Virus record (IMG/VR): IMGVR_UViG_3300022847_000009
Span: 1 to 39,129 of that record
Source of the DNA: a virus
Length of the DNA: 39,129 nucleotides
Strand: one strand, 5' to 3'
Shown here: piece after piece, positions 17,090 through 39,129 of the stretch
Layout: each line of letters starts with the position of its first letter
How positions within the stretch are numbered: the first letter of the stretch is position 1
Notes under the pieces: model-generated
Seen by the model: only the letters and a program-made list of their open reading frames with translations
Databases searched by the model: none
What the model was told of the DNA's origin: nothing
Position numbers and translations under genes: made by a program

Positions 17090-17102
17090 AAAATTCTGCA
17101 AC

Positions 17103-17124: not shown

Positions 17125-17137
17125 ATTGAGGAACACT

Positions 17138-22492: not shown

Positions 22493-22518
22493 AAGGTGAT
22501 TGGGAGGAAACATCCTAA

Positions 22519-22540: not shown

Positions 22541-22563
22541 TTCCAATGGAAAAGGAGCGGGCC

Positions 22564-23115: not shown

Positions 23116-23119
23116 GCCC

Positions 23120-23332: not shown

Positions 23333-23333
23333 G

Positions 23334-24667: not shown

Positions 24668-25486
24668 GTTATCCCTTCCTGTTCATCTCGCTGTTTTGCC
24701 CGCTCGAGGCGCCGCCTTATCGATTCCCCGCCGTTACCGGTGGGCGGCGGCCCTCGGTCGTCGTATCCGCCTTCCATGAGTTTCGTGAAGCGGGCCGGGC
24801 GCAGCAGAAAATCAAAATCCGCCCCCGGCCAGTGCTGGCCATCCCCCCCCGACAAAGCCGTCTCGCATGGTCTGGCTGGCCTCGACCTTGGCCAAGGCGG
24901 CTTTCCAGCCCTCAATCCCGCCGCAGTCTTTCAACCGCGCCTTGACCTTGGCGCGGCGTTCTTTCGCCAGCGGTAACCGCACCGTCGGCCGTTCGATCCG
25001 CGCCGCGGTCTCGTTCCACAGTTCCGCGGCGCGCGTCACATCGTCGGGTGGTGGTTCTGACGGCGAGGAAGATGGATTACATCCATTATCGTCAGATAAT
25101 GGAGAATCAACGGGGATAGGGGATAGGGGATAGTGGTTAGGGGTTTCGATAGGGTCTCGATAGACTATCCCCAACCGTTCGATTTCAGAGGCCAAATCGT
25201 ACTTTTCAGGCTTCTGCTTTTGCGCCATCAAGTCATTGCAAACAATAAGTTTTGCATGGCTATCCGGTAGCCCAAAAGCAACCTTTGCCAGCGCTTCGGC
25301 ATGCTTTGGGTTTGTCGGCGGATCGTGCTCGATAAAGTCAACGATGCGAAGAAGCTCTTCCGACTCGTTCCAGTCCACCAAATCGACCCTGGATAGGCTA
25401 TCGATAGTCTTTACGCAGCGCGCATCATCCCACCCCATATCGGCCGAAATATAGCCAATAGGAAACGAGGAATTTATTCCCCACAT
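24664..25486 (-). pseudogene. replication-initiator-type protein, frameshifted at a G8 run
   Basis: The reading frame from ATG 25,486 carries an initiator-like pattern (IGYISADMGWDDARC, RIVDFIEHDPPTNPKHAEAL, and VKARLKDCGGIEGWKAALAKVEAS). It then reaches a run of eight G on the coding strand (24,843-24,850) and ends soon after at 24,812. Removing one G restores FVGGDGQHWPGADFDFLLRP and ARFTKLMEGGYDD, the usual C-terminus of this family, and ends in the TGA that overlaps the next ATG. The break is therefore a 1-base indel, real or from sequencing, or a slippage site. Homologues as I remember them have about 50 more residues at the N-terminus, so the 5' end may also be shortened. Confidence 0.75.
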
Positions 25487-25492
25487 TCCAGG

Positions 25493-25521
25493 ATTGACAG
25501 AACGTCAATAATATTTACAGT
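25493..25521. promoter_or_regulatory. divergent early operator/promoter region
   Basis: ATTGAC-AGAAC-GTCAAT (25,493-25,509) is a perfect 6-bp dyad. It overlaps a TTGACA box (25,494-25,499) and a copy of the recurrent element, ACGTCAATAATATTTACAGT (25,502-25,521). It lies in the 40-base gap between the leftward replication gene and the rightward regulator gene, so it can control both. The -10 boxes are weak, which suggests activation or a non-canonical promoter. Confidence 0.55.
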
Positions 25522-25526
25522 AATGA

Positions 25527-25799
25527 ATGAGAGATTCGCAGACCATACAGAATGATACCGTGCTGATTAAAAACCTTGGCGGCCCCGTCAAGGTCGCCAA
25601 GCGGCTGTCCGTCGCGACCGGCCACAAGATCACGCACAACAGGGTCAACAACTGGAAGACGATCGGCATTCCCAGCAATTGGCGCCCGATGATGGCGCAG
25701 ATTGCGATGATCGAGGGCCTGACGCTGCAAAGCAACTTCCTGGCCCCATTCAGCCGGTCGGCCGCTCCCGACGACGATAAGGAAGCCGACGCGGCATGA
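25527..25799 (+). CDS. Cro/YdaS-like DNA-binding regulator
   Basis: The 90-residue product contains a helix-turn-helix of the Cro/YdaS type. GGPVKVAKRLSVATGHKIT is the first helix pair, and NRVNNWKTIGIPSNWRPMM carries the recognition helix, the NW pair and the IP..WRP signature (about residues 18-58). The C-terminal 25 residues are Asp/Glu/Ala-rich and flexible. It starts immediately right of the divergent operator at 25,493 and is the first gene of the rightward early operon, the classic place for a Cro-like repressor. No matching CI-type repressor or integrase was found. The ATG at 25,527 has a weak Shine-Dalgarno. Confidence 0.75.
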   Translation: MRDSQTIQNDTVLIKNLGGPVKVAKRLSVATGHKITHNRVNNWKTIGIPSNWRPMMAQIAMIEGLTLQSNFLAPFSRSAAPDDDKEADAA

Positions 25800-26056
25800 A
25801 GACCTATAACGAAATCGTTGCTGCCGTTGCCGCCGCCATGCCGGGCGACGAGGTCGTCTATTTTCAGGGTCGCCTGTCCGAAGCGATCGACAGCCACGAC
25901 CGAAGCATTCGGGGCTATGCCCTATCGGTTCAGCGCTTCATCTACAATCTTGTGACCGAAAAGAACGCCGGGCACTCCATTCAGCGTCGCCGTGCCGATG
26001 GCGAGGGCTTTACCTACATCTACATTCCGCGCCGTGCCGGCGCCTTGGTGGCGTGA
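25796..26056 (+). CDS. small early protein, unknown
   Basis: The 86-residue product overlaps its neighbours on both sides by ATGA-type junctions, so it is translationally coupled. An N-terminal helical stretch (MKTYNEIVAAVAAAMPGDEVVYF) is followed by RLSEAIDSHDRSIRGYALS and a basic beta-rich end (SIQRRRADGEGFTYIYIPRR). The last part resembles the wing of a winged-helix protein, so DNA binding is possible. I do not recognise a family. Confidence 0.6.
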   Translation: MKTYNEIVAAVAAAMPGDEVVYFQGRLSEAIDSHDRSIRGYALSVQRFIYNLVTEKNAGHSIQRRRADGEGFTYIYIPRRAGALVA

Positions 26057-26382
26057 TGGACGGATCGCAAATGCCCATGTTCGCGTTTGCGGCGTCATAT
26101 CCGGATTGCCCGGCGTCGAGGCCGGTCGACACCAGCATCGAAGCCGCCGAGCGGATCGAAGAACGGGCGCCCGACATTCGGGACCGTGCCCTTTCGATTA
26201 TCCGGAGCGCCGGCGTCATGGGCGCGACGGCCGACGAGGTCGCCGAGCGGCTGCACCTGACGGTGCTTTCCGTAAGGCCCAGGATCTCCGAGCTCAAGAA
26301 AATGGGGTTGATCTGCGATAGCGAGGTCCGCCGCACCAATCGAAGCGGCCGCCGGGCGGCTGTCATGGTGGCGGTTCGATGA
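26056..26382 (+). CDS. winged-helix DNA-binding protein
   Basis: The 108-residue product starts at the ATG overlapping the previous TGA. Residues 45-108 read as a winged helix: RALSIIRSAGVMGATADEVA, then RLHLTVLSVRPRISELKKMG with the recognition helix, and a wing ending RTNRSGRRAAVMVAV. The form resembles phage proteins that regulate early transcription or assist replication initiation. The N-terminal 40 residues look like a flexible tail (SYPDCPASRPVDTSIE). It overlaps the following gene by ATGA. Confidence 0.7.
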   Translation: MDGSQMPMFAFAASYPDCPASRPVDTSIEAAERIEERAPDIRDRALSIIRSAGVMGATADEVAERLHLTVLSVRPRISELKKMGLICDSEVRRTNRSGRRAAVMVAVR

Positions 26383-26801
26383 AAGTATCAAAAAACCAGG
26401 TTCGCCAGCTTCGACGGGAGAATAAAACCTACCCGAAAACGCTGATCGAATTACCGTTTGATACTTGGCCCGTGGCGATGCGTTTAGCACCGCCCGAACG
26501 GGTGCCGCGGCGCGTATTTCGGAGCCGGGATTTTCTTGTCCAGGTCTTCACTGCGGACGGCGATCATGTGCGCCTGTCTGCCTGTCGAACCGATTTTGAC
26601 GTTAACGCCGGTCGGTGGCGGGAAAACATCACCTGGAACGAATTGCAAAGGCTCAAGGCCGAGGCCGGCTTCGCCGACGCATGGGCGGTCGAGGTATTCC
26701 CGCCAGAATCGGAAATCGTGGACGTAGCGAACATGCGGCACCTGTTCATGTTGCCGGAAGCGCCGTCCTTTGCTTGGAAAAAGGAACCTAAAAATGGCTG
26801 A
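26379..26801 (+). CDS. DUF7694-like phage protein
   Basis: The 140-residue product has the pattern of a conserved phage protein family of unknown function. RVFRSRDFLVQVF is followed by LSACRTDFDVNAGRWRENITWNELQRLK, then WAVEVFPPESEIVDVANMRHLFML and a terminal PSFAWK. The order and spacing of ITW.ELQ.LK and VVxVANMRHL are what I associate with DUF7694. It is coupled by ATGA to the upstream gene and overlaps the next by 8 bases. There are no catalytic motifs I can name. The N-terminus (MKVSKNQVRQLRRENK) is strongly basic. Confidence 0.65.
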   Translation: MKVSKNQVRQLRRENKTYPKTLIELPFDTWPVAMRLAPPERVPRRVFRSRDFLVQVFTADGDHVRLSACRTDFDVNAGRWRENITWNELQRLKAEAGFADAWAVEVFPPESEIVDVANMRHLFMLPEAPSFAWKKEPKNG

Positions 26802-27570
26802 TGTTGGCGGCGTCGCATCCGAGCGCCTTAGATCGTTTGTCGAGCGCATTGAGAGGCTGGAAGAGGAAAAGGCCGCGCTGACCGGCGATATACGTGAGGT
26901 CTACTCCGAGGCCAAGGGCACCGGTTTCGACGTCAAGGTGCTGCGCCAGATCGTGCGCTTGCGCAAGATGGACGCCAGCGCCCGCGCCGAGATGGAAGAG
27001 TTGGTCGACGTCTATAAGCGCGCGCTCGAGATGGACGGCATGCAGACCAGGGAACGCCGCGACGAGATTTGCCGCGCCCGCCCGACGCCGTTGGAAAAGT
27101 CAATCAAAGCGATGGGTACACCGGTTGAGCCGACCGCCGAGGAGAAATCCAAGGGCGTCGTCGCCGCGTTCGAGAAGAACGGCACGCGCATGTCGATCGC
27201 CACCGGCCGCAATCTCAAGGAAGCCGTCTCGGAAAAGCTGACCGATGCCGGGTTTAAGCATGAGGGCGGAAACCAATGGTCGGCACCCGACAAAGAACAG
27301 AATGACCCCGCGCCCGAGGGGCAAAGCGCCGGCGACGGTGCCAATATCGGCGGTTCGGCCCCACTCCAAGAGGACGAAGCGCGAGGGGCGCCATCTTCTG
27401 AAACACCAAGCCGGGATGAAGCGCCGGCGCCGAGCGATCACGTCGACGACGCAAAACGTGACCATTTTCAGGCCAATTCCGGCAACCCCTCGCAGACTTC
27501 CGACGACTTGATCGATCATCCAGACAGTTGGCCCAAGGGACTGGACCGCCGCCATGAGGCGGCCGGATGA
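26794..27570 (+). CDS. GapR/DUF2312-like protein with long C-terminal extension
   Basis: The product has 258 residues. Residues 5-80 match the DUF2312/GapR family: ERLRSFVERIERLEEEKAAL, DIREVYSEAKGTGFDVKVLR, and IVRLRKMD, followed by a helix to residue 80. GapR is an alphaproteobacterial nucleoid protein that binds overtwisted AT-rich DNA ahead of replication and transcription forks. Bacterial GapR is about 90 residues and ends there, but this protein continues for about 175. The extension includes GVVAAFEKNGTRMSIATGR and a final acidic, Ser/Pro-rich tail. The start at 26,794 follows AAAGGAACC. A role in phage DNA topology or host takeover is inferred. Confidence 0.8.
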   Translation: MADVGGVASERLRSFVERIERLEEEKAALTGDIREVYSEAKGTGFDVKVLRQIVRLRKMDASARAEMEELVDVYKRALEMDGMQTRERRDEICRARPTPLEKSIKAMGTPVEPTAEEKSKGVVAAFEKNGTRMSIATGRNLKEAVSEKLTDAGFKHEGGNQWSAPDKEQNDPAPEGQSAGDGANIGGSAPLQEDEARGAPSSETPSRDEAPAPSDHVDDAKRDHFQANSGNPSQTSDDLIDHPDSWPKGLDRRHEAAG

Positions 27571-28454
27571 GCGGTGTTCTTGCCCCGATCCTGGCGCCCA
27601 AGCGAAAACGCGGTAAGGCCATAAAGCGGCCCGAGCAGGACATCCAGATTGCCATTGCCACGTACCTTACGCTGATCGCGCCGCGTCACGCGCCGAGCGC
27701 GTCGTTCATCTGGCACCACAGCCCGAACGGCGGCGGTCGGTCTCGCGCCGAGGGCGGTCTGTTCAAGGCAATGGGCACGCTGGCCGGGTTTCCCGACGCC
27801 ATCTCGAAGACCTGCCTGTCGCCGCTGACGGCAACCATATCGATCCGCGCCGATGTCGGTCTCGCCAACATCAAGAACCACCTGATCAGCCTGCAGGAGC
27901 TCGGTTACATCGATCGCACCGGCACGCGCCGCCTGACCTTGCTGCACGTCAAGAAATGGCCGGACGGCATTACGCCGCGAAACACCGAGGGGCGTGAGGA
28001 CGGGTTTGTCGCCGAAGATCTGCTTGCCGATCTAAAGGCGTACTATAGTGACATACCGTTATGCACCGACGCACCACGCCCTGCCCCGCCGCCGGTAGAC
28101 AAACCGCTGCAAAAATCGGATCCGGTTGCGCCGGCGGCACCGACACCGAAACCGGCGCCACGCCCGCCCGTCTATCAGCGGCCGATATCCCGCCCGCCCG
28201 AGCCAAAACCAGCGCCAAAGGTCGAGTCCGTCGACGACTACATCGCCGCCAACGGCGTCAAACGCTACGAGCCCGGCATTTTCGAGGAACTGGTGAGGCG
28301 GCCGCTCGAGGCGGCAGGCTACGAGGTTGTCATCACGCGCCCGAAGGGGGTGCGGACCTGGCTGATAAACGGCAAGCCAATGGACGAGCAAACCGTCATC
28401 GACAAGGCCAATGTTCTCCGGGCAAGTACCGGTCTTGCGGAATTGTCGGTATGA
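27567..28454 (+). CDS. truncated VRR-NUC domain fused to a winged-helix domain
   Basis: The product has 295 residues. Residues 20-78 match the first half of a VRR-NUC nuclease: RPEQDIQIAIATYL, FIWHHSPNGGGRSRAEGG, FKAMGTLAGFPD, with the first catalytic Asp at 77. The usual ExK strand is absent. After AISKTCLSP the protein changes to a helix-turn-helix-like segment with NIKNHLISLQELGYIDRTG (about 97-120). A Pro-rich linker (160-215) and a small C-terminal domain (VRRPLEAAGYEVVITRPKG) follow. Without E and K it should not cleave DNA as a VRR-NUC. It overlaps the methyltransferase gene by ATGA. It could be a natural fusion after deletion or an assembly artefact. Confidence 0.65.
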   Translation: MSGVLAPILAPKRKRGKAIKRPEQDIQIAIATYLTLIAPRHAPSASFIWHHSPNGGGRSRAEGGLFKAMGTLAGFPDAISKTCLSPLTATISIRADVGLANIKNHLISLQELGYIDRTGTRRLTLLHVKKWPDGITPRNTEGREDGFVAEDLLADLKAYYSDIPLCTDAPRPAPPPVDKPLQKSDPVAPAAPTPKPAPRPPVYQRPISRPPEPKPAPKVESVDDYIAANGVKRYEPGIFEELVRRPLEAAGYEVVITRPKGVRTWLINGKPMDEQTVIDKANVLRASTGLAELSV

Positions 28455-29626
28455 GCGTTCGCATCGAACACGGGGATTGTCTGGACGTCATGCGCCGCCT
28501 GATCGGCGAAGGCGTCCAGGTCGACGCCGTGGTCACGGACGCGCCCTATCACCTTGCGAGTATTGTCAGCCGGCTTGGAAAGGCCGGGAGCGCGGCTATT
28601 CAGCACGGCACCGACGGCGCCTATGCGCGGGCCTCCAAAGGCTTTATAGGCAAGGAATGGGACGGCGGCGACATTGCCTTCCGAGCGCGGACCTGGTCCT
28701 TGGCGCTCATGCTACTAAAGCCCGGCGGTTACCTTTGCGCGTTCGGCGGCACCAAGGGATGTCATCGCATGGCGTGCGCGATCGAAGACGCGGGCGCGGA
28801 GATCCGGGACACCCTCGCCTGGCTGTATGGGTCTGGTTTCCCAAAATCGCACAATCAAAGCGGCCAATGGGACGGTTGGGGAACCGCGCTCAAGCCGGGA
28901 TACGAGCCGATTGTTTTGGCTCAACGTCAGTCCGGGAAGTCCGTACCGGCAACGCTGGCGCGTCACGGCGTCGGTGCCATCAACATCGATGGGTGCCGGA
29001 TACCTACAAACGATAGTTTGGCCGGGTCTGGAAGTGCCCAGCTCAAGTTTGCTGGCACAAACCACCGACCGTTTCACGATGATGCGGAACCGCGGGGCAC
29101 AAACCGAAATCCGGGCGGCCGCTGGCCCGCCAACGTGCTGCACGACGGCTCTGACGAGGTCATCGAGGCCTTTGCCGCATTCGGCACGAACAAGGGTGCC
29201 CAGGCACCGGTAACGCGCCGCGGTGCCGATAAATTCCGCAATACCTATGGCGACTTTAAGGGGCAGGAAGAGGCTGGGGCCACGTTTCACGGTGATAGCG
29301 GCGGTGCGGACCGTTTCTTTTACTGCGCAAAGGCCACCGAACGCGAGCGCGTCTATACGTGCAAGGAATGCGGCATGCGGTCCCGCGGTAAGCCTAGCTG
29401 CGGGCATGCGGACCTGGAAAGCCATCCGACCGTCAAGCCCATTGCGTTGATGCGCTGGCTATGCCGTCTCGTCACGCCACCGGGCGGGACCATCCTGGAC
29501 CCGTTTGCCGGCAGCGGTACCACCGGCGAGGCGGCCGAGGCCGAAGGCTTCGATAGCATCCTGATCGAGCGCGAGACCGACTACGTCGAAGATATCCGCA
29601 CGCGCATAGGGGCGACCCCGTCATGA
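28451..29626 (+). CDS. DNA methyltransferase, N6-adenine/N4-cytosine type
   Basis: The 391-residue product transfers a methyl group from S-adenosylmethionine to an exocyclic amino group in DNA. The catalytic motif IV is DAPY at residues 30-33 (usual form DPPY), and the SAM-binding motif I is DPFAGSGTT at 350-358. That puts the order IV before I, as in the beta class and PF01555. Other family features are KPGGYLCAFGG (about 97-107) and GSGFPKSHNQ (around 132). A four-Cys or Cys/His element (CKECGMRSRGKPSCGH) sits before motif I. No partner endonuclease is encoded next to it, so it probably protects phage DNA from host restriction. Confidence 0.9.
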   Translation: MSVRIEHGDCLDVMRRLIGEGVQVDAVVTDAPYHLASIVSRLGKAGSAAIQHGTDGAYARASKGFIGKEWDGGDIAFRARTWSLALMLLKPGGYLCAFGGTKGCHRMACAIEDAGAEIRDTLAWLYGSGFPKSHNQSGQWDGWGTALKPGYEPIVLAQRQSGKSVPATLARHGVGAINIDGCRIPTNDSLAGSGSAQLKFAGTNHRPFHDDAEPRGTNRNPGGRWPANVLHDGSDEVIEAFAAFGTNKGAQAPVTRRGADKFRNTYGDFKGQEEAGATFHGDSGGADRFFYCAKATERERVYTCKECGMRSRGKPSCGHADLESHPTVKPIALMRWLCRLVTPPGGTILDPFAGSGTTGEAAEAEGFDSILIERETDYVEDIRTRIGATPS

Positions 29627-29871
29627 TCGGCCTCGCATGCCCCGCGTGTAACCATTTGGCCAGCGGCTGCGTTGACAGCCGTCCCACCGACCGTGGGGCG
29701 AGCGTCCGTCGCCGCCGGGAATGCAAACACTGTGGCGCCCGCTTTACGACGATCGAAGAATGCGCCGAGACGGTAAAGGCCGTTGTGCCGCCGCCGTCTC
29801 CTGTCTCAAGGCCTACGCTCCTGACCCAGCGAAGCCTCCGAGAACGGCTCATTGCCGGCGAATACGCATGA
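29623..29871 (+). CDS. NrdR-type zinc-ribbon protein without the ATP-cone
   Basis: The 82-residue product begins LACPACNHLASGCVDSRPTD, then VRRRRECKHCGARFTTIEE. This is the N-terminal zinc ribbon of NrdR, the ribonucleotide-reductase regulator (CP.C.....V.DSR........RRRREC..CG.RFTT.E), with the four Cys at residues 6, 9, 34 and 37. NrdR is about 150 residues with an ATP-cone that senses nucleotides; here only the ribbon and about 30 unrelated residues remain. The gene overlaps its neighbours by ATGA junctions. It may bind NrdR boxes in the host genome or compete with host NrdR, which is an inference. Confidence 0.8.
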   Translation: MIGLACPACNHLASGCVDSRPTDRGASVRRRRECKHCGARFTTIEECAETVKAVVPPPSPVSRPTLLTQRSLRERLIAGEYA

Positions 29872-30050
29872 GCAAGTTGCAGCGGATGATCGATGCGCTG
29901 GTAAACGGCCACGCGAAGGAATGCACCTGGAGCGGAGCGCCGGCGCTGAAAATCGTACTCAAGGAACCGAACGGTATCCGTGAAATCTATTTGCTGGCCG
30001 AAGAGGTTGATGTTGATGAAGAGGAGCCTGACCAGTGCCCGGAAGCCTGA
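29868..30050 (+). CDS. small early protein, unknown
   Basis: This 60-residue product (MSKLQRMIDALVNGH, CTWSGAPALKIVL, IREIYLLAEEVDVDEEE) is coupled by ATGA to the NrdR-like gene. Its last 16 bases overlap the SSB start. The acidic tail and beta-type middle suggest a small partner protein. I do not recognise it. Conservation of the overlapping arrangement would be its best support. Confidence 0.55.
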   Translation: MSKLQRMIDALVNGHAKECTWSGAPALKIVLKEPNGIREIYLLAEEVDVDEEEPDQCPEA

Positions 30051-30427
30051 ACCGCGTCGACTTGATTGGTCATCTCGGCCGCGATCCCGAAGTCCGCTAC
30101 ACCGGACGCGGCGTGAAGGTCGTCTATCTGTCCTTGGCGACGAACGCCATGCGCACAAATCGTGCAGGCGAGCGCGTCGAACATACCGAGTGGCACCGCA
30201 TCGTGCTGTTTGGAACCGAGGCGGATAATGCAGAAAAGTTTCTACGAAAAGGCGAACAGGTCCATATTGTCGGGTCGCTGCACACGGAAAAATGGGTGGA
30301 TAACGGCGGGAAGCAAAAATATAGGACCGAAATTGTCCTCGATTCGCCACAACATACGCTCACCTTCCTGGGCAGGGGAAAGAGTGACGCCGGTGAAGAG
30401 AGCGCACGGCAAGCTGCGCATGGCTGA
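30035..30427 (+). CDS. ssb: single-stranded DNA-binding protein
   Basis: The 130-residue product has the OB-fold signature of bacterial SSB: SLNRVDLIGHLGRDPEVRYT at residues 4-23, VYLSLATNAM and EHTEWHRIVLFG (about 30-60), then AEKFLRKGEQVHIVGSLHTEKW and KYRTEIVLD. It binds and protects single-stranded DNA during phage replication. The start is GTG 30,035, which gives MPGSLNR as expected for SSB. The C-terminus ends ESARQAAHG and lacks the acidic DDDIPF-type tip that recruits host replication proteins. The protein may thus be specialised, or may be partnered by another phage factor. Confidence 0.92.
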   Translation: MPGSLNRVDLIGHLGRDPEVRYTGRGVKVVYLSLATNAMRTNRAGERVEHTEWHRIVLFGTEADNAEKFLRKGEQVHIVGSLHTEKWVDNGGKQKYRTEIVLDSPQHTLTFLGRGKSDAGEESARQAAHG

Positions 30428-30467
30428 CTGGTAGGCGTCTGGTGCGTAAACAACGAAGGGCAAAAAG

Positions 30468-30587
30468 ATGAAAATAGACAAAAAACAGAGAGGAAAAGAC
30501 TGTATTTCTGCCGAAGACATCTCCATGTCGTCGGACATCACCAACCGCGCCGGAAGCGCGCTGAATCGAGCATATTTCCGCCGATAA
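30468..30587 (+). CDS. 39-residue small ORF
   Basis: The ATG at 30,468 follows GAAGGGCAAAAAG, a good Shine-Dalgarno. The product is basic at its N-terminus (MKIDKKQRGKDC) and polar after that (AEDISMSSDITNRAGS). It fills part of the 245-base gap between the SSB gene and the next gene. No family is recognisable, and at this length chance is possible. The ribosome site is the main support. Confidence 0.4.
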   Translation: MKIDKKQRGKDCISAEDISMSSDITNRAGSALNRAYFRR

Positions 30588-30637
30588 TCTTCCCCATTAG
30601 ACTTTAATGTAAATTTTCTGCTTGCGTTCTTTCTGGC

Positions 30638-30660
30638 AGGTATGTAAAAAAACCTTACCT
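30638..30660. promoter_or_regulatory. inverted repeat upstream of the gene at 30,684
   Basis: AGGTA and TACCT form a dyad with a 13-base spacer containing an A-run, in a locally AT-rich stretch of an otherwise GC-rich early region. A TTGCGT box at 30,622 lies upstream, but no convincing -10 box is present. It may be an operator or promoter for the two following genes. Confidence 0.3.
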
Positions 30661-30683
30661 ACATTATCTGTATGCGAGGTTTT

Positions 30684-31055
30684 ATGAACGCGATCCATCA
30701 AAGCGAAAGAAACATCCGGTGGTACGAGAACCTTGGCGTTTACGTGCGCGTCGAAAACCCGCGCAGCCGGACCTACGATAAGCATTATTTTGAGTTTCTT
30801 TCGCCGGCCGACGAGGTGGTCAGTCTGCGAAAGCGGTGCGCCGACCTCGAGGTGCGGGTCGTCGAATGCAGCGACTTCGCGCGGAACCATCTCGCCCTGG
30901 CGAAGACGCTCCGCGAGCATGGTGAATGCGGCGCCCATGAGTTGAACCGAGCCCGGCATTTCATCGGCACCCGGCGCGTCATGCGGCGTCAGATCATTCT
31001 CATGAACCGCCGCGCCGAGGCGCTGGCGGCGGAACTTCAACAGGCGGCGGAATAG
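30684..31055 (+). CDS. small early protein with coiled-coil tendency
   Basis: The 123-residue product from ATG 30,684 (GAGG four bases upstream; another ATG at 30,672 would add four residues) begins with a beta-type segment: RWYENLGVYVRVENPRSR, then YFEFLSP. Residues 45-123 are helical and rich in Arg, Leu and Ala (VVSLRKRCADLEVRVVEC, then VMRRQIILMNRRAEALAAEL) and may form a coiled coil. I do not recognise it. Preceded by an AT-rich regulatory-looking stretch, it could be an independently regulated early gene. Confidence 0.6.
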   Translation: MNAIHQSERNIRWYENLGVYVRVENPRSRTYDKHYFEFLSPADEVVSLRKRCADLEVRVVECSDFARNHLALAKTLREHGECGAHELNRARHFIGTRRVMRRQIILMNRRAEALAAELQQAAE

Positions 31056-31067
31056 GAAGGTTATCCC

Positions 31068-31412
31068 ATGTGTAAGATTGAACGACTGCGCACGACGTCG
31101 ACGTTCGACGTTCACTTCAAAGGGACCGGCAGCAAGGTCAAGTGCGAAATGACCGAGTATGCCGGCGGGCCGCATCTCAGCATTCACACCGGCGGACAGA
31201 TCTTCGAGATGACCGAGGCCGATTTCGAGGGCTTCGTCAGCAGCATGCGCCATTTGTTCGCGCTGGATCGGAAGGTGCAGGCCGCCGCCGACAACGGGGC
31301 GCGCGGTGCCGAGCCCCAGCCGGCCGCGCCGGCGAGCCGGAACCGGGCGGCAACCGCAGCGATGGGTATTATCATGGCTGGCGAAACGGGGCCGTTGATG
31401 GTGGATACTTGA
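31068..31412 (+). CDS. early protein of unknown function
   Basis: The 114-residue product starts behind AGGAAGG. Residues 1-60 look like a beta-barrel or Tudor-like small fold (STFDVHFKGTGSKVKCEM, GGPHLSIHTGGQIFEM), followed by a short helix (ADFEGFVSSMRHLFALDRKV) and an Ala/Pro-rich tail with GIIMAGETGPL. It is the last gene of the rightward early operon and converges with the leftward gene at 31,447, 34 bases away. No intrinsic terminator is visible in the short gap. Confidence 0.6.
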   Translation: MCKIERLRTTSTFDVHFKGTGSKVKCEMTEYAGGPHLSIHTGGQIFEMTEADFEGFVSSMRHLFALDRKVQAAADNGARGAEPQPAAPASRNRAATAAMGIIMAGETGPLMVDT

Positions 31413-31446
31413 CGAAGGACCGTTTTCAATCGGCTGCCGCTAGAAA

Positions 31447-32268
31447 CTATTCAAGACGCCCGGCCGCCTGACTCCCCACCGGGCGAACATGCCCTTTACA
31501 GATGATGTGATAGAGTTCAAGCGCGTTGCGGATTGCCGCGACGGCGGTCTCATGACGCATTGAGCGAAGGCGCCTCGCCTCGCTGACTGGAATGCCCTCG
31601 ACGGCAACTAAAAGAACAAGCCGGCGATCGAGGTTTGGCGCCGCGTCGACGACGTTTGACCACGGCAAGTAACGCTCGGTCCACCAATCGCTAATTTTCT
31701 CGCTGATACTCATGGACGGCGGAAGTCGACCGCCTTTCGGATGTGATCCGGATGCGCCATCGATCGAGCTGCCGCGACAGGCGACGATGACGGTGATCGC
31801 CTCGAATACTTCGGCAATTTCACGGGCCGCGCGTTTGTGGTGCTCCTCGAGGTGACCGTCCTTGACCATGCGCAAGATCGGGTCCGGCCGTTGTCGTGCC
31901 TTCAATACCGCTTCCGCCGGCGCCGCCTCTCCATCACGCTTTAGGTCCAGGTTCTTTTTGCTGTGCTCGGCAAGCAAGTCATCGAAAACCTGGGCTTCGA
32001 TTTCATAGTTTGTGCCCTTCTGCAAATGGCGGTCGAGCTCGTCGTCGTACAAGCGACCACCCCATGGTAACGCGGCGAACAAAGCACCTTTCTTGCCGGC
32101 GCTGACAGCCATTGTTTGATGGCGTGCGCTTCGACCGCGCAGGTCGTCGCGAATACGCTCGGTCTTGGCGCGAACCTCCGGATCTCGTTGGCGGAAGGAT
32201 TGGTCAAGCAAATCAACGATTAGATTCCCGGCAGAGATGCGTTTTCTTCTGGCCTTAGATTTCCCCAT
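31447..32268 (-). CDS. GC-rich leftward gene, possible DNA-binding protein
   Basis: The product has 273 residues. The N-terminus is basic (MGKSKARRKRISAGN) and the middle has a segment with RPDPILRMVKDGHLEEHHKRAAREIAEVF (about residues 130-158), reminiscent of phage regulator or small-terminase-like proteins. The C-terminal part has LPWSNVVDAAPNLDRRL and EGIPVSEARRLRSMRHETA, which could be a helix-turn-helix. It keeps the high GC of the left part of the window, although it is transcribed in the same direction as the AT-rich block to its right. I cannot name a family. Its 5' end overlaps a short gene by 49 bases at the composition boundary. Confidence 0.6.
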   Translation of the reverse strand: MGKSKARRKRISAGNLIVDLLDQSFRQRDPEVRAKTERIRDDLRGRSARHQTMAVSAGKKGALFAALPWGGRLYDDELDRHLQKGTNYEIEAQVFDDLLAEHSKKNLDLKRDGEAAPAEAVLKARQRPDPILRMVKDGHLEEHHKRAAREIAEVFEAITVIVACRGSSIDGASGSHPKGGRLPPSMSISEKISDWWTERYLPWSNVVDAAPNLDRRLVLLVAVEGIPVSEARRLRSMRHETAVAAIRNALELYHIICKGHVRPVGSQAAGRLE

Positions 32269-32441
32269 AGCTTTCGGCCTCCAAATTGATCACCATAAAT
32301 CTTCGCTAAATAGCTCGCGGGGATGGTCTGCTTTCTCGATTTGCTTTGAGACGTGCAGAGCAATGTCCCGTGCTTCCATCCGGCCAACGAACCCGCGTTC
32401 ACTTTAGGATAGTTTGGATTGCCTTGTTCATTTCTTTGCAC
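32220..32441 (-). CDS. small gene crossing the composition boundary, probably 3'-truncated
   Basis: The 73-residue frame starts MQRNEQGNPNYPKVNAG and continues with WKHGTLLCTSQ and SYLAKIYGDQ, in AT-rich sequence. Its last 16 or so residues (RPEENASLPGI) are merely the +1 reading of the start of the GC-rich gene at 32,268. This suggests that the original 3' end was lost at a recombination or assembly junction near 32,280. The motif QxGNPxYP recurs as QKGNPDFP in the gene at 33,218. Function unknown. Confidence 0.45.
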   Translation of the reverse strand: MQRNEQGNPNYPKVNAGSLAGWKHGTLLCTSQSKSRKQTIPASYLAKIYGDQFGGRKLWGNLRPEENASLPGI

Positions 32442-32670
32442 TCTTCATTTTTGAATTAAACATTAGCCTAGCCCACTCTTCGTTGGCGCGTTGATACGAA
32501 TCCGGGTCATTGTCTTTTTGGACGCTGACCGGGAAACCGTCACGTTTTTCTTTGGCGATCTTGGACCGTTTGCGGCAAATAGTCTGGCGCTGTTGCGGAG
32601 TGAGTGACGCCAGGCCCCCACCGTTCCTTTTTTGCTTTTTGCTTTGGTCTTTCGGGTATCCTACGGGCAT
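32428..32670 (-). CDS. small basic protein, unknown
   Basis: The 80-residue product starts right after the TAG of the preceding gene, behind GAGGAAAAATAG. It is very basic (KDQSKKQKRNGG, QRQTICRKRSKIAKEKR) with a short more neutral end (DPDSYQRANEEWARLMFNS). A nucleic-acid-binding role is plausible from charge alone. It belongs to a chain of tiny, tightly packed leftward genes. I do not recognise a family. Confidence 0.5.
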   Translation of the reverse strand: MPVGYPKDQSKKQKRNGGGLASLTPQQRQTICRKRSKIAKEKRDGFPVSVQKDNDPDSYQRANEEWARLMFNSKMKSAKK

Positions 32671-32820
32671 CTATTTTTCCTCCGTGGTGCAATATGATCC
32701 CCCACATTCTTGATAGATGATGTCGTACTTCGCTTGAGTTTCTGACATCGATACCATCACGAGATATAGCATCACTACTGTCGTCAACATGACAGCTAGA
32801 CCTGCGATAAATTTATTCAT
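32671..32820 (-). CDS. small single-TM protein
   Basis: The 49-residue product starts at the ATG that overlaps the end of the upstream gene (ATGAATAA). Residues 3-22 are a transmembrane helix (KFIAGLAVMLTTVVMLYLV), followed by a polar tail with a Cys pair (CGGSYC). It could be a membrane-anchored host-takeover or exclusion peptide, but nothing specific identifies it. Confidence 0.55.
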   Translation of the reverse strand: MNKFIAGLAVMLTTVVMLYLVMVSMSETQAKYDIIYQECGGSYCTTEEK

Positions 32821-32974
32821 CGTAACGACGTTCATCAAGTTTAACACGAGCTTCATTCATTAAACGGACACCCCTGATAAACTTGATGCCATGTTCTTCA
32901 AGGAAATCACAAGCTTTAGAAAATGTGATTTCTTTACAGTCAATTTGCCACACAAGTAACTCAATATATGTCAT
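32813..32974 (-). CDS. small protein, 53 residues
   Basis: The product (MTYIELLVWQIDCKEITFSK, then ACDFLEEHGIKFIRGVRLMN) is coupled to the gene before it by the stop-start overlap TAAATAAATG and to the next by ATGAATAA. The helix-strand pattern looks like a small globular protein. It has a Shine-Dalgarno (GGGAG) inside the end of the upstream gene. No family is recognised. Confidence 0.55.
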   Translation of the reverse strand: MTYIELLVWQIDCKEITFSKACDFLEEHGIKFIRGVRLMNEARVKLDERRYDE

Positions 32975-33199
32975 TTATTTATCTCCCATCTCGTCAAAGG
33001 CTTTGCAAAATCCAGGATTGTTTGGACCACTACTGTGAAGAAGACGGCAACCTTGTTCGCCCCAATTCCATTCGCATCGATCGCAAGCCTCATGACCCTC
33101 ATCAAAAAACTCAGTAATTTTTATCCAAGTATCTTTAATAGGATCTTCTAAATTTTTTGTAGCGTTACGATCAAGAATGTTTTGAATTGATTTATGCAT
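32975..33199 (-). CDS. small Cys-rich protein, 74 residues
   Basis: The N-terminal half is helical and charged (MHKSIQNILDRNATKNLEDP). The C-terminal half has four Cys in CDRCEWNWGEQGC and CKAF, a pattern suitable for a zinc or iron-sulfur site. It lies in the chain of small leftward genes. Metal binding is inferred from the Cys spacing only. Confidence 0.5.
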   Translation of the reverse strand: MHKSIQNILDRNATKNLEDPIKDTWIKITEFFDEGHEACDRCEWNWGEQGCRLLHSSGPNNPGFCKAFDEMGDK

Positions 33200-33217
33200 C
33201 TTAAATTCCTTGAATAT

Positions 33218-33427
33218 CTAGTTTTGCGTAGCCTGAAGCTTAGCTAGATCCATAATCTCGCGCCATTTCACTTTGTCCATCATCGGACTTACTGTGAGAA
33301 TGTCTAAATTCTTAGGCTTATGTACAAAAGGGCTAGTTATTTGTTTCTCCAATCTTGGGCGGTTCGGGAAGTCCGGGTTGCCCTTCTGATGATTAAATAT
33401 AGGACGTATTGATTTCAGGGTCAACAT
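33218..33427 (-). CDS. small protein with QKGNPDFP motif
   Basis: The 69-residue product starts MLTLKSIRPIFNHQKGNPDFP and continues with RPRLEKQITSPFVHKPKNLD and a short helix at the end. It begins seven bases after the VRR-NUC stop, behind GAAG. The motif resembles QGNPNYP in the gene at 32,220, so the two may be related small proteins. Function unknown. Confidence 0.5.
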   Translation of the reverse strand: MLTLKSIRPIFNHQKGNPDFPNRPRLEKQITSPFVHKPKNLDILTVSPMMDKVKWREIMDLAKLQATQN

Positions 33428-33433
33428 TTATCT

Positions 33434-33757
33434 TCAAATAATATGAAATATTTTTGCCTTCGCGTCCTCAAATCCGTACCCTATAATGCACCGATGTCCG
33501 ATGCCTTCCAGATGTTCCATCCAATCTTTTTGTTCGGTTGATGTCTTGCTGCCCTTGATGCTTTTCATCTCAATCCACAACAGCAACTCTGGAATGAATA
33601 GATCCGGTACGCCACGGCTCACGCCTTCAAGCTTCAACTTGAGTGCAGTGGCCTTGTGTCGGTGACCGCCGTTTGGGATTGCGAAGATTCGGATGTCAGG
33701 GAATTTTTGCCTAAACCATTGCACAAGCTCTCGCTGTTCTTCATGTTCAGTCTTCAT
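33434..33757 (-). CDS. VRR-NUC nuclease, complete
   Basis: This 107-residue stand-alone PD-(D/E)XK nuclease has all the expected elements: EEQRELVQWFRQKFP (residues 6-20), IFAIPNGGHRHKATALKLKLEG (24-45), GVPDLF with catalytic D52, LLLWIEMK with E63 and K65, then STEQKDW and CIIGYGFEDA. Enzymes of this size act on branched or flapped DNA during phage recombination and replication. It overlaps the end of the broken diphosphohydrolase gene by 11 bases. Unlike the copy at 27,567, it retains the catalytic ExK. Confidence 0.9.
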   Translation of the reverse strand: MKTEHEEQRELVQWFRQKFPDIRIFAIPNGGHRHKATALKLKLEGVSRGVPDLFIPELLLWIEMKSIKGSKTSTEQKDWMEHLEGIGHRCIIGYGFEDAKAKIFHII

Positions 33758-34085
33758 TTTTTCTCAACTTTAATTCTAATCGGGCCAAGGCATTCCATGC
33801 TAGGTGGGCATCGTGCAGCATGTTGCTGTCAGTATCTTCCCCGCATTCGAGCCTGTGGCGGTCCATCGCGGCGGTGTATCTTTTAAATCCGTCTGGGACG
33901 TGCTGCCATCCGCCCTATGAATATTTATTAGCGCCGAATGTGGCGACTTCAGCCACAGCCTTTAGTGCCAGCGGCATCCCATCGAGGATCAGATCGATAC
34001 GGATTTTACCTTCGTCCATCTTTGCACCGGAATCCCCGGCAGATTTTCCTGCTGGGTCTTTTTCTTCAGTATTCCTCACATCCAT
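33747..34085 (-). pseudogene. dATP/dGTP diphosphohydrolase-like gene with in-frame amber codon
   Basis: The frame from ATG 34,085 encodes GAKMDEGKIRIDLILDGMPL, then LKAVAEVATFGANKYS, stops at TAG (33,917-33,915), and resumes in the same frame as GGWQHVPDGFKRYTAAMDRHR to LAWNALARLELKLRKNED. Together the halves match the phage dATP/dGTP diphosphohydrolase N-terminal family (D.GK.R.DL, FGA.KY...W..VPDG..RY). Both ends overlap neighbouring genes (ATGGATGTGA and AATGAAGACTGA), as for a functional operon member. TAG terminates other genes in the same block, so general recoding is unlikely. A nonsense mutation or a base-call error is the simplest explanation. Confidence 0.75.
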
Positions 34086-35662
34086 GTCCTATCTAAAACC
34101 CTGTGAAACTTGCCATCCATCTTATACCTAATGCCACTTGGTGGCACGGCGGCATTCATAATATTGGCTGCATCCTCAAGCCCTGCATTCTCAAGACCCT
34201 CCATGAATGCCTCTGATTTTACAGCCAGTTGGGCGAATAGTTCCAGCGCCTTTTTCCCGGCGTATCCCTGATGCTCAACAGTTAAATATTCATTAACAGG
34301 TTTATCAGATAAAGCACCGTAATAGGTCACGCGGAGCATTTCCTTGCCGCTGGTGTAGCTGACGTGCTTTCGCCATGTCCAGCTAGTCACTGACATATCG
34401 CTCGCATCCAGCCCCATGATATCGTCATTACGAAGCTTCGGCTTCTCAGGTAGGCTAGATTCTAAGAATGCCATACCGCAACTTGGACATACCTTAGTTG
34501 AGAGTGGCACAATCTCGTCGCAGTTCTCGCAGATCTTCATTGGCGCTTCGCCCGTGCCAGCCTTCCTGCCGGGGTCAACGGCGGTGATCGGCCCGTGCGT
34601 TTGGACAACGCCCGCAAAATCCAGAACTAAACAGTGATCCGTGTGGGTTTTGGGTCGCATTCCGCGTCCTGCCATCTGCACATACAGGGATGGCGACATG
34701 GTCGGGCGTAACATCACAATGAGATCCAAGTCAGGATGGTCGAAGCCAGTGGTCAGGACGTTGGCATTTGTCAGCGCCTTGATCCGCCCATCCTTAAAGT
34801 CTTCGATGTGCTGCTCGCGTTCCTTCTTCGATGTTTTCCCGGTGATTGTCTCCGCGACTATCCCGTTCTGTCGTAGCTCATCGCGAATGTTATACGCATG
34901 ATCGACGCCGACACAGAAGAATAACCAAGACTTGCGATCCTCTGCGAGCCGTATCGTTTCGTTTACGGCCCCCATGTTCTGATGCATTGTATCGACAGAC
35001 TTTTGCAGTTCGCTTTCTATGAACTCGCCGCCCCGCTTATGTACACCATATGTGCTTAACGCCAGATCCGTCACCTTGGATCTGAGCGGTGCCAAGTGTC
35101 CCTTGGCTATTAGTTCTTCAATTGTTACTGGGTCTATCAGGTCAGAAAACAGCCCTGTGTCATCCGTGATCAATCCATGCCCAAGACGGTATGGGGTGGC
35201 GGTTAGGCCCACTACACGAATATGCGGATTAATTGTGGTAAGCGCGTCAATGAGGTTCCGATACCCGCCTTCGGCCTTATGGCTGACAAGGTGGCATTCA
35301 TCGATAATTACCAGATCGATGTGACCAATTTCTTCTGCACGGTTACGCACCGATTGTACCCCGGCGAATGTTATTGGCTCGCCCAGCCGTCTGGATCTGA
35401 GCGAAGAAGAATAGATTCCCATGGGTGCAGTGGGCCAGTGCTGCCGCATCTTCTCTGCGTTCTGTTCAATAAGTTCTTTGACGTGCGTCAGCATAAGTAC
35501 GCGGGTGTCAGGCCAGTTCTGCAAAGCATCCTTGCATAACGCCGCTACGATGTGTGATTTGCCAGATCCAGTTGGCAACACTAGACAGGGATGCCCATCG
35601 TTGCCCGCCCTGAACCAATTATACAACTGATCGATTGTTCGCTGCTGGTAATCTCTAAGCAT
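34076..35662 (-). CDS. SF2 DEAD/DEAH-box helicase
   Basis: The 528-residue product starts at the ATG overlapping the previous gene's TAG (ATGCTTAG). Motifs: LRDYQQ (Q motif, residues 2-7), PTGSGKS (30-36), IDECHLV with DECH at 121-124, LTATPYR (153-159), and in the second RecA domain TTGFDHPDLDLI and YVQMAGRGMR. After the helicase core there is a four-Cys ribbon (CENCDEIVP, CPSCG) and a C-terminal domain with SWTWRKHVSYTSG. It unwinds DNA or remodels branched DNA, probably with the neighbouring nuclease and annealing proteins. The relationship is to phage UvsW/RadD-type helicases. Confidence 0.92.
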   Translation of the reverse strand: MLRDYQQRTIDQLYNWFRAGNDGHPCLVLPTGSGKSHIVAALCKDALQNWPDTRVLMLTHVKELIEQNAEKMRQHWPTAPMGIYSSSLRSRRLGEPITFAGVQSVRNRAEEIGHIDLVIIDECHLVSHKAEGGYRNLIDALTTINPHIRVVGLTATPYRLGHGLITDDTGLFSDLIDPVTIEELIAKGHLAPLRSKVTDLALSTYGVHKRGGEFIESELQKSVDTMHQNMGAVNETIRLAEDRKSWLFFCVGVDHAYNIRDELRQNGIVAETITGKTSKKEREQHIEDFKDGRIKALTNANVLTTGFDHPDLDLIVMLRPTMSPSLYVQMAGRGMRPKTHTDHCLVLDFAGVVQTHGPITAVDPGRKAGTGEAPMKICENCDEIVPLSTKVCPSCGMAFLESSLPEKPKLRNDDIMGLDASDMSVTSWTWRKHVSYTSGKEMLRVTYYGALSDKPVNEYLTVEHQGYAGKKALELFAQLAVKSEAFMEGLENAGLEDAANIMNAAVPPSGIRYKMDGKFHRVLDRTWM

Positions 35663-36713
35663 CGAATGTTTCCTCAATGGTGCGTACTTCTTTAATGGTA
35701 GCGCCGGGGAATGTTTCTCTGATGGTCTTTACTAGGTCGTTGGTGCAAGTTTCTCCGCTAGCAACAAGCTCTGTCGATGCGAATGTGTGTGCATCTGCTA
35801 CCCCGTTTCGGATTGGCTCGCCGTTGATAATGTAGACAGCTTCGTGTGGGTCCGTGCTTTCGCCCATCTCCCACGGTACCAAATCAGGATGAAGAACGTG
35901 GTCTTCGCAGCCCTCTGCTTGGAACTCAGTTGGAATGCCGCCCTCGCCATGCCGCGCACATGACCATGTGCCATCTTCTTCAGGCGTAACGTGGGCGCAC
36001 GTCCGGCAGTTCACTTCCTTGGTCAACTTGGTTGAATGGCAGAAATCATATGCGTCACAGAACTTGCACTCATACCAACTTGGGTCGGTGGAAAGTGGGT
36101 CTGGCATACGCTCTGACAGAACAATGCGCTTGGATCTCTCCAGCAGTTTTTCTGCAAAATCTTTGTCATACCGGACGCGCTCAATATAAAGCTGGTCATC
36201 GTTCTTGCAGACGGCAACGTACAGGGCGCGATCAATCTTCGTGCCGTGCATGTATAACTGCAACTGCGCGTAATGGACAGGCTTTGATTTCTCAACGCCG
36301 TTATTCTGCATGTCGGTGAATGACTTCAATGAATGTGTCTTGAACTCCGCAACGTGAGGCTTATTTGGTGCCTCTGGTACGCCGTTCGTAATAATGCAAT
36401 CCAACTGCCCTGACACATGGCACCCAAAGCTGACGCGCTTCTGCATCTTCCCGGCGTGAGTGATTCGGATACCTGCCGCTTTCAGATCATCGACAATCCA
36501 GTTTTCTTCGTGATGTCCACGTCTGAACAGGCGTAAGATCCTGCCGGGAAACTTAGGTTTCACAGCCCAGCGGAATGACAGCCAGAGCCATCGTTCACAT
36601 TTATGCCCTGCCTGTGACGCGCCGAAGTGCGGCCTTGGTCGTTCGGCACGGTCTTCGTGTGCCTTGTCGATCATGGTGATGATATCGTCATCGCGTTTTG
36701 GTATTGTGGTCAT
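35655..36713 (-). CDS. Cas4-like PD-(D/E)XK nuclease with Fe-S cluster
   Basis: The 352-residue product has PD-(D/E)XK residues D105 (VSGQLDCI), E123 and K125 (AEFKTHS), preceded by HHEENWIVDDL and followed by the QLQLY motif at 150-154 (HYAQLQLYMHG). Four Cys form the expected Fe-S arrangement of Cas4 and AddB: C39 in GHKCERW and C216, C219 and C225 in YECKFCDAYDFC. A second Cys group (CRTCAHVTP, CARHGEGG) lies near residues 235-265. The enzyme probably resects DNA ends for the annealing system encoded upstream. No CRISPR array is present, so a recombination role is favoured over spacer acquisition. Confidence 0.9.
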   Translation of the reverse strand: MTTIPKRDDDIITMIDKAHEDRAERPRPHFGASQAGHKCERWLWLSFRWAVKPKFPGRILRLFRRGHHEENWIVDDLKAAGIRITHAGKMQKRVSFGCHVSGQLDCIITNGVPEAPNKPHVAEFKTHSLKSFTDMQNNGVEKSKPVHYAQLQLYMHGTKIDRALYVAVCKNDDQLYIERVRYDKDFAEKLLERSKRIVLSERMPDPLSTDPSWYECKFCDAYDFCHSTKLTKEVNCRTCAHVTPEEDGTWSCARHGEGGIPTEFQAEGCEDHVLHPDLVPWEMGESTDPHEAVYIINGEPIRNGVADAHTFASTELVASGETCTNDLVKTIRETFPGATIKEVRTIEETFDA

Positions 36714-37098
36714 TTAATGTGTCTCCATGTTTTCTTAGTTTCTATTCTCAATATGGTTACGTCAGAAACCCCAAAGATTCTGCCTATTTCTCTTTTGCTC
36801 GTTTCCCTTCTTTTAATAAATGTCGTATTTCAACAATGTCGTGTTCTTTCAGTTTTGAGGATTTATTTTTTACCCCTATAAATGTAACCGTTCTTTTCTT
36901 TCTTGCTTGGTCTTCCATGTTTTCTTTTTGTGTGCCTAAAAACAGGTGGTCTGGATTAACGCACTGTCTATTATCACACTTATGCAGGACACAAGTGCCG
37001 TGTCGGCCTACAGAAGCTGTCCAGTTCCAGCATCCAGACACTCGATCTATGATATATTTTTCATCAAATCTTTCCTGAAGTGTTTTCATTGCGGACAT
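36710..37098 (-). pseudogene. decayed HNH homing endonuclease
   Basis: The frame from 37,098 encodes [13 protein letters not shown], then [35 protein letters not shown] and a C-terminal DNA-binding part, as in phage HNH endonucleases. About 25 residues that normally lie between W.W.....G and CVLHKCDN, including the AHR catalytic histidine, are missing. The frame ends early at TAG 36,786-36,784. A 2-base deletion or 1-base insertion in the A-rich stretch before it restores [19 protein letters not shown] and a stop at 36,712-36,710 that overlaps the next ATG. Both lesions mark it as a remnant of a selfish gene. Confidence 0.8.
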
Positions 37099-37100
37099 AG

Positions 37101-37129
37101 TAAAAAGCTGGGGGTTATTAGCCCCCAGC
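37101..37129 (-). terminator. rho-independent terminator after the DUF669 gene
   Basis: In the leftward direction GCTGGGGG-CTAATAA-CCCCCAGC is followed by TTTTT. It lies eight bases after the stop of the DUF669 gene and before the HNH remnant, so it separates the annealing genes from the nuclease/helicase genes. It may have arrived with, or been displaced by, the inserted HNH gene. Confidence 0.85.
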
Positions 37130-37136
37130 CCTCCCT

Positions 37137-37610
37137 TTATTTTTTCCAAGGTGGGTTGCTGTTGGGCGAGTTTTCTTCTGCTTTCGCCTTTGGCATTGGT
37201 GGTGAATATCCATCGATAGCCTTGTACGCTTTGATCTCGTTGCTATCGCCCCATTCTTCAGACAGTCGGATGCTGCATTTGATAGAACAAGTGCCGCCGA
37301 TAAGCTGGTCAGTGTCTTTAAGTGATGACAGCCCAACTGCCCGCATTAGGGAATCCAATTGTGATCTCCCGATTTCTTCAGCCTTCGGATTGGGGTTTTT
37401 TAGGTTTAGTTTTGTGAAAACCACACGCCCCTCATGCGCTGGACCCGTCACATCGAACCGAATTGAAATGTAATTTCCAGTGCCCGACTTGGTGTCTCTT
37501 AGTTCAGCAGCAAAAATCGTTGCGGTGTACCATCCAGCCGGGATTGGCAGGAACTCGTTTTGGATGTCTGGGGCATCGCCCACGTTGACAGTTTCTCCAA
37601 GAAAAACCAT
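37137..37610 (-). CDS. DUF669 single-strand-binding-type protein
   Basis: The 157-residue product has the DUF669 layout: [20 protein letters not shown] at residues 20-39, [26 protein letters not shown] (40-65), then [22 protein letters not shown] and the closing beta part with [15 protein letters not shown]. Proteins of this family occur beside phage annealing ATPases and probably bind single-stranded DNA. It starts behind GAGGAATAAGAAC, at the stop of the gene before it. The Pro/Lys/Asn-rich tail ([10 protein letters not shown]) may recruit partners. Confidence 0.8.
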
Positions 37611-37614: not shown

Positions 37615-37998
37615 TTATTCCTCTGTTATTGCGAATGAAGGACGGCTTGGCGTTGTTGTAATGCCGTCCAGTAGGGGCAGCGTGATTGCTGCGTCGGTGT
37701 TTTTCCATACAGCCATAATGATAGATGGCTTCCAGTTAAACAGGTTTGGTAGGTGTTCAGACAATCCGTGTTCTGTGGCAATTGCCTGTATCTTATCTCC
37801 ATCAACTTTGCGATTAATACGCCCAGTGATCTTGATCTTGAAGTTGTGGATTTCAAAATTCTCAACGCCTTCAAGCGCGTCAGATATCTTGAAGTCTTTG
37901 ACCATCTGGTCTTCAAGGAGGCGGCGCCGCGTCTGAGCTTCCTGCTCTTCAAGCTTTGCTTGCATCCATTGTGCGTAGATTGGGGAATTATTGATCAT
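37615..37998 (-). CDS. conserved small protein between Sak4-like and DUF669 genes
   Basis: The 127-residue product starts at ATG 37,998 behind GGAAGTGAT; a longer frame would begin inside the Sak4-like gene. A helical N-terminus (SPIYAQWMQAKLEEQEAQTRRRLLEDQM) is followed by a beta-rich core with FEIHNFKIKITGRINRKVDG and WKPSIIMAVWKN. The form is like the DUF7173 family of phage proteins, an assignment of moderate certainty. The tight spacing to both partners suggests a subunit of the annealing complex. Confidence 0.6.
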   Translation of the reverse strand: MINNSPIYAQWMQAKLEEQEAQTRRRLLEDQMVKDFKISDALEGVENFEIHNFKIKITGRINRKVDGDKIQAIATEHGLSEHLPNLFNWKPSIIMAVWKNTDAAITLPLLDGITTTPSRPSFAITEE

Positions 37999-37999
37999 A

Positions 38000-38677
38000 T
38001 CACTTCCATCCAATCTTCTTGATAATCTCGCTCAAGTCAGGAGCTTCCCACGCTTCGAGTTTGGCACCCATCCGGTGCTTGGCTTGCCAGAGGCCATCAC
38101 TCTCCATCATCAGCGCACGTTGCAGTTTACCTTCTTCGTCTTTCTCAACGCGCATTGCTGCGACGATGTCGAATGCATATGGCAATGACTGGCCCGCCTT
38201 CTGTCCCGGCATTGATGGCCCGTAAAGAACGCGGCCCATCTCGTCGGTGGTCTTTGACAATTGGGCAGTCATGTAAACATTCTTGCCCTTCAGGTCGCGG
38301 AACAAACGGATGACTTCAGCCATGGTCGTCTGCATTTCGCCATAGGCTGCGCGAGGATCTTTATTGATCTTCTTCTCGTTTGCCAGACAGACTTCAGCGA
38401 TCTCCGTGATGCTGTCGATTGCCACAGACTTGAAATGCTTTGCATCTTCATGCGTGTTCAGCCATTCGTATGCCTCGCGCAGATCATCCATAGATGCGAT
38501 CTGCATGAACGGCAGTTCCTCATCTGATAGTGTCAGCAATCCAGCCTCTGCCGATAATATAATTGGGTCTGGTAGGGTCTTGATCAGCATTGTCTTGCCA
38601 GATCCAGCGGCACCGTATGCCAATATCTTGATACCATCTGCTGAAATGGTACTGGTCGATTGTAAATTAACAGCCAT
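38000..38677 (-). CDS. Sak4-like RecA-fold ATPase (phage annealing protein)
   Basis: The 225-residue product has Walker A GAAGSGKT at residues 22-29 and a Walker B-type segment SVAIDSITEI with D88, in an AAA_24/RecA-like fold. AYGEMQTTMAEVIRLFRDL, NVYMTAQLSK and the end SEIIKKIGWK fit the Sak4 group of phage single-strand annealing or recombination ATPases. It follows AACAGGAGAACGCAGCA, a strong Shine-Dalgarno, and is the first gene of the recombination operon, below the operator at 38,781. It would anneal complementary single strands together with the DUF669 protein. Confidence 0.85.
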   Translation of the reverse strand: MAVNLQSTSTISADGIKILAYGAAGSGKTMLIKTLPDPIILSAEAGLLTLSDEELPFMQIASMDDLREAYEWLNTHEDAKHFKSVAIDSITEIAEVCLANEKKINKDPRAAYGEMQTTMAEVIRLFRDLKGKNVYMTAQLSKTTDEMGRVLYGPSMPGQKAGQSLPYAFDIVAAMRVEKDEEGKLQRALMMESDGLWQAKHRMGAKLEAWEAPDLSEIIKKIGWK

Positions 38678-38818: not shown

Positions 38819-39128
38819 TCACGATCTGGACGTGTCCGGCGGTAGTGACGATGTATCGTTTGCATCGCTCACCTCGTTTCGTAATTCGGACGGCGGTTGT
38901 GCTTCGCTCAGAAGAGTTAAGAGTTTATCCGCCATTAGGATATACGAACTCTCAGCACCCCACACAGCAGCACTCCTCGCAGCACTCCACGCAGCAGAAC
39001 TGTCAGCACTCCACGCAGCAGAACTGTCAGCACTCCACGCAGCAGCACTGTCAGCACCCCACACAGCACTCCACGCAGCAGAACTGTCAGCACTCCACGC
39101 AGCAGCACTCCTCGCAGCAGCCCTCGCA
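38819..39128 (-). CDS. Ala/Ser/Trp repeat protein, 5' end outside the window
   Basis: The frame is open to the window edge and encodes at least 102 residues. The visible N-terminal part is made of eight-residue repeats of the type SAAWSADS with variants SAAWSAAR, SAAVWGAE and AWSAVWGA. The unique C-terminus reads YILMADKLLTLLSEAQ and an acidic/Ser end. I have seen proteins with long (D/Y/W/R)SAA repeats and a final ADKLLELL-type helix in phages and bacteria, but their function is not known to me. A GTG at 39,064 could be an internal start. The reading frame is kept across all repeats. Confidence 0.65.
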   Translation of the reverse strand, partial: ARAAARSAAAWSADSSAAWSAVWGADSAAAWSADSSAAWSADSSAAWSAARSAAVWGAESSYILMADKLLTLLSEAQPPSELRNEVSDANDTSSLPPDTSRS

Positions 39129-39129
39129 G
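38965..39129. repeat. 24-bp tandem repeats (minisatellite) in the repeat-protein gene
   Basis: The unit CAGCACTCCACGCAGCAGAACTGT recurs with a few substitutions (AGCAGCACTGT, CCCCACACAGCACT) and one shortened unit, up to the window edge. Because 24 is divisible by three the repeats keep the frame and encode eight residues each. The number of units could vary by slippage. The contig may end here because the array could not be assembled. Confidence 0.8.

Follow-up and report, generated by a model that had tools for sequence, protein, structure and literature searches.

The window, a 39,129-base IMG/VR virus record, comprises a GC-rich backbone, a transition segment and an AT-richer island, whose features are collected in Table 1. 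We find that the island is, as judged from its genes, a complete replication and recombination cassette of about 10.5 kb, belonging to a type known chiefly from marine tailed phages; it covers window positions 32,196-39,129 and continues for ~3.5 kb past the end of the contig. The cassette is bidirectional, with a Cro-like ORF and a TOPRIM primase-helicase reading rightward and the other genes reading leftward and ending at the junction. The primase-helicase (666 aa, TOPRIM and AAA, rightward) lies past the window end on the contig G001 (33,354 bp), and directly upstream of it there is a rightward ORF of 53 aa that is Cro-like as judged by eye.

Table 1. Features of the window, with coordinates counted from its first base
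Feature	Position	Strand	Basis or remark
GC-rich backbone, GC 0.616	1..29945		composition and profile searches
Major capsid	1473-2594	+	backbone
Hc3-type protein	9100-10518	+	backbone
LPD38 protein, 1792 aa	17087-22465	+	backbone
Peptidase/endolysin	22546-23115	+	backbone
GapR-like DNA-binding protein	26770-27570	+	PF10073 E 1.6e-32
Left VRR-NUC-type protein	27567..28454	+	partial phrog_824 match, E 4e-11; no Pfam hit
N6/N4 methyltransferase	28061-29626	+	backbone
Transition segment, intermediate GC 0.576	29946..32195		composition and homologue search
Canonical OB-fold SSB, backbone side	30035..30427	+	PF00436 E 3.5e-29; phrog_44
Orphan gene, 273 aa, final gene of leftward run	31447..32268	-	GGAGG ahead of ATG
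Junction, left edge of the island	32180..32300		GC change-point and sequence-pattern matches
Small ORF, earlier read as a truncated gene	32220..32441	-	ORF present; coding and truncation unsupported
Small AT-rich ORFs in series, distal end of the leftward cassette operon	32428..33427	-	ORFs
VRR-NUC nuclease of the cassette	33434..33757	-	phrog_824 E 6e-36; PF08774 just under cut-off
ResIII/SF2 DNA helicase	34076..35677	-	profile matches
Cas4-domain/YqaJ-like exonuclease	35655..36713	-	phrog_1990 E 3e-100
HNH endonuclease, inserted within the cassette	36784..37149	-	PF13392
DUF669 ssDNA-binding-type protein	37137..37610	-	PF05037 E 2e-11
DUF7173 protein	37615..38013	-	profile matches
Sak4-like single-strand annealing ATPase	38000..38677	-	phrog_124 E 7e-57; PF13479
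Ala/Ser/Trp-repeat gene, 3' part	38819..39129	-	open frame extends onto G001 as far as reconstruction position 39682

G001 shares an exact 174-bp match with window positions 38,956-39,129, continues with ~12.4 kb absent from the window and is then matched by window positions 1-20,792, so that the two together form a circle of 51,505 bp. The relative G003 is of similar size, at 51,874 bp. The join falls in a 12-bp tandem-repeat array, but this array lies within a single open frame of 288 aa that spans the join, and, as in about 30 cassette contigs, the primase beyond the join is on the strand opposite to Sak4. The array (window 38,944-39,129 and onto G001) is in frame and gives a leftward protein, at most 288 aa long, a tail rich in Ala, Ser and Trp; the window and the assembly of metagenome 3300023296 both break at the array, and we rejected it as a candidate origin because it sits inside an open reading frame. 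Separately, a promoter-like TTGACC-17-TATATT is present at 33424-33396(-), followed at 33,366 by the leader GGCAACCCGGACTTCCC, of which a one-base-shorter version is found on G001; the promoter and a similar leader stand ahead of early genes at window 33,366-33,424 and at reconstruction positions 39,600-39,945. The repeated leader hairpin was discarded as a regulatory element, since its predicted folds were not clearly more stable than those of shuffled sequences.

We next consider the base composition. The sharp junction between GC-rich and AT-richer DNA that the sequence-only reading had described corresponds to the largest G+C step of the genome, at ~32,200 (0.58 to 0.49), and its observation that codons to the left favour G/C third positions also stands, with GC3 of 0.6-0.86 in the large left genes and 0.27-0.58 on the right. 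A likelihood change-point in G+C was placed at 32,195, with a GC content of 0.576 over 29,946-32,195 and of 0.490 over the next 10.5 kb, and across the 51.5-kb reconstruction the left-to-right drop was maximal at 32,200 with 1-kb flanks and at 32,150-32,400 with 2-kb flanks. Two further claims held in part: the genes right of the step all run leftward, but so does the orphan gene just left of it, and genes are smaller only within 32.2-33.8 kb, whereas genes of 533 and 352 aa follow further right. The opposite step, a rise in GC, occurs at 42,650, after the primase and close to where a metallopeptidase gene begins, beyond which G001 carries the small terminase, the large terminase and a P22-type portal; the island therefore measures ~10.5 kb and has two edges, of which the earlier reading had seen one.

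Because the composition of 29.9-32.2 kb is intermediate, the seam may extend over a zone instead of lying at a single point. Between the SSB and the step, the genes had homologues among the loci examined only in copies of the same phage, and the step itself falls within the first 75 bases of the orphan gene, whose protein matched only L003 and no phage record; within the collections searched, the gene is confined to this phage. A 56-base pattern immediately right of the change-point matched only L002 and L003, and the pattern to its left only L003. The small ORF, which overlaps the start of the orphan gene by 49 nt, had been taken for a gene truncated by the junction. This was not borne out: it had no homologue in the phage records and loci examined except copies of the same sequence, its GC content is flat across codon positions, and it begins with GTG and has no obvious Shine-Dalgarno sequence.

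Upon examining the relatives of the cassette, we observed that seven marker genes (the cassette list minus the HNH endonuclease and the Cro-like ORF) occur in identical order in 28 other viral contigs that were fetched, all remaining patterns being truncations of that order. The arrangement is that of Alteromonas phage PB15 (KX982260), with the TOPRIM primase-helicase, here on G001, divergent from Sak4-DUF7173-DUF669-exonuclease-helicase-VRR-NUC. As in this phage, a Cro-family regulator and a TOPRIM protein of PB15 share one strand, while the other carries an ATPase in the Sak4 position, a YqaJ-type recombinase, a helicase and a VRR-NUC in the same order; the two exonucleases are about 61% identical. 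PB15, whose genome has a GC content of 45.5% (PMC8265664), is in contrast a siphovirus with a GTA-like head, gave no canonical SSB match and lacks an HNH annotation in this stretch. The backbone major capsid was found in none of the 24 cassette records tested, many of which are partial contigs, and a near-DNA search of window 25,000-39,129 against phage records returned no match. The cassette helicase is ~72% identical to its nearest distinct relatives, which argues that the donor was not close kin of any sequence compared and that the exchange, which the earlier reading had offered as recent, is not necessarily so.

The backbone, as judged from its genes, is of a GC-rich, podovirus-related, Bcep22/KPP25-like type. 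It has a major capsid homologous to that of these phages, a P22-type portal and a very large LPD38 protein. The Bcep22-like (DC1, BcepIL02) and KPP25-like phages have capsids 33-40% identical to that of this phage, but their genomes are larger, at 61-64 kb compared with ~51.5 kb. Capsid relatives were also found in loci of Falsiroseomonas, a Rhodospirillaceae bacterium and another alphaproteobacterium. A nearer relative is G003 (IMGVR_UViG_3300032373_001207), with a capsid 81% and a portal 62% identical, which shares TerL, the methyltransferase and the late gene order. G003 differs in carrying DnaB and DnaD-like genes beside the methyltransferase, and RecT and an exonuclease elsewhere, in place of the cassette, and neither it nor the backbone relative G005 gave a match to Sak4. 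A second set of left-side relatives, sought through the methyltransferase, yielded distant matches only and no closer backbone. Relatives of the block therefore lie in other backbones and relatives of the backbone carry another block, as in a mosaic phage genome.

Several smaller observations concern the backbone. The GapR-like protein is 82% identical to its G003 counterpart across 71 residues. The large terminase (894 aa; G001 reverse complement 4851-7535; L089:9120-11804:-) contains an insertion of ~310 residues that its relatives lack, which has Cys as its first residue and His-Asn as its last two, followed by Ser, gives a LAGLIDADG-type match and splits an apparent Walker A site; it probably represents an intein that carries a homing endonuclease. 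Additionally, the gene at 13,730-15,079 shows a small indel between the window and G001 (453 aligned positions compared with 449 aa), the rest being nearly identical.

The assignment of an SSB to the left side and a DUF669 protein to the right was confirmed by profile searches. The claim of one VRR-NUC on each side was substantiated for the right-hand protein, whereas the left-hand one is recognised only by a partial phrog_824 match. A canonical SSB was found in none of 28 records tested, whether cassette carriers or backbone relatives, and VRR-NUC was present exactly once in each of the 24 cassette carriers and absent from the backbone relatives tested; from this distribution, the second SSB-type and second VRR-NUC-type proteins belong to the left side and not to the cassette. 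The combination of a canonical SSB, DUF669 and two VRR-NUC-type proteins in this phage is missing from all 24 cassette records. That the Sak4 system here works with the SSB of another module is doubtful, but if it were so, the hybrid would be a natural test of the ssDNA-binding partner that Sak4 requires.

The sequence-only reading had left open whether the junction reflects mosaic recombination or a chimeric contig, and the evidence favours the former. A fusion of two different phages by the assembler at 32.2 kb would account for the differences in relatives and composition between the two sides, and for the contig L002 (3300023296_000297; 99.99% identical to window 32,218-39,085, with 1 mismatch in 6,868 bases), which stops at 32,218, near the junction, after entering the gene on the left of the seam by 51 bases, an end that could mark an assembly branch. 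We nevertheless regard such a fusion as very improbable. A related sequence with the same junction had been named beforehand as one part of the test for an artefact, and L003 (IMGVR_UViG_3300022842_000782), from the different metagenome 3300022842, matches window 29,751-37,053 at 100% identity, with the junction included. At its far end the island is connected on G001, which derives like L002 from metagenome 3300023296, to the terminase, portal and capsid of the same phage. Both island-end joins are thus backed by separate metagenome records, since L003 spans the left seam and G001 links the right end, although the metagenomes may be samples of a single site that were assembled alike. Furthermore, no 15-mer of 32,000-32,700 is repeated elsewhere in the 51.5-kb reconstruction and no 17-mer is common to the other loci examined, so that no word was found that would cause a false join. 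The 39,129-bp contig is trustworthy, yet it represents only part of a ~51.5-kb genome.

Alternatively, no exchange took place and vertical drift made the early genes of the lineage AT-richer than its late genes. Where cassette contigs exceed 9 kb, the GC difference between cassette and flanks is usually only a few per cent, which indicates that module and host can co-evolve. However, G003 has a different replication block and a GC content mostly of 0.50-0.60 throughout, with no comparable step between modules, the cassette carriers are without the backbone capsid, and the other early genes of the phage (25.5-30.4 kb) are not of island composition, so that drift is the least credible of the explanations and can hardly be upheld. 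We consider it very likely that the junction is instead the left edge of a ~10.5-kb horizontally exchanged replication and recombination cassette in a GC-rich Bcep22/KPP25-like phage of ~51.5 kb. The cassette, which would supply the replication and recombination of the phage, probably moved as a unit from an AT-richer lineage, by phage-recombinase-mediated or illegitimate recombination, and would still partly retain the composition of its donor. Relaxed homologous recombination through phage annealases and illegitimate recombination are both possible routes; a homologous patch was looked for at the seam and not found.

Recombinases, Sak4 being one of those counted, are enriched in phages that have undergone recent transfers and also figure among the functions transferred (PMC8136500), while a study of Sak and Sak4 describes single-strand annealing proteins as involved in generating phage mosaicism (PMC5499656). 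The junction is real and natural and reflects ordinary phage mosaicism; as mosaic exchange with recombinases as both promoters and cargo has already been described (PMC8136500), it leaves the general understanding unchanged. Overall, this phage offers a clear example of unrelated tailed phages exchanging a whole replication and recombination cassette, both edges of which were located.
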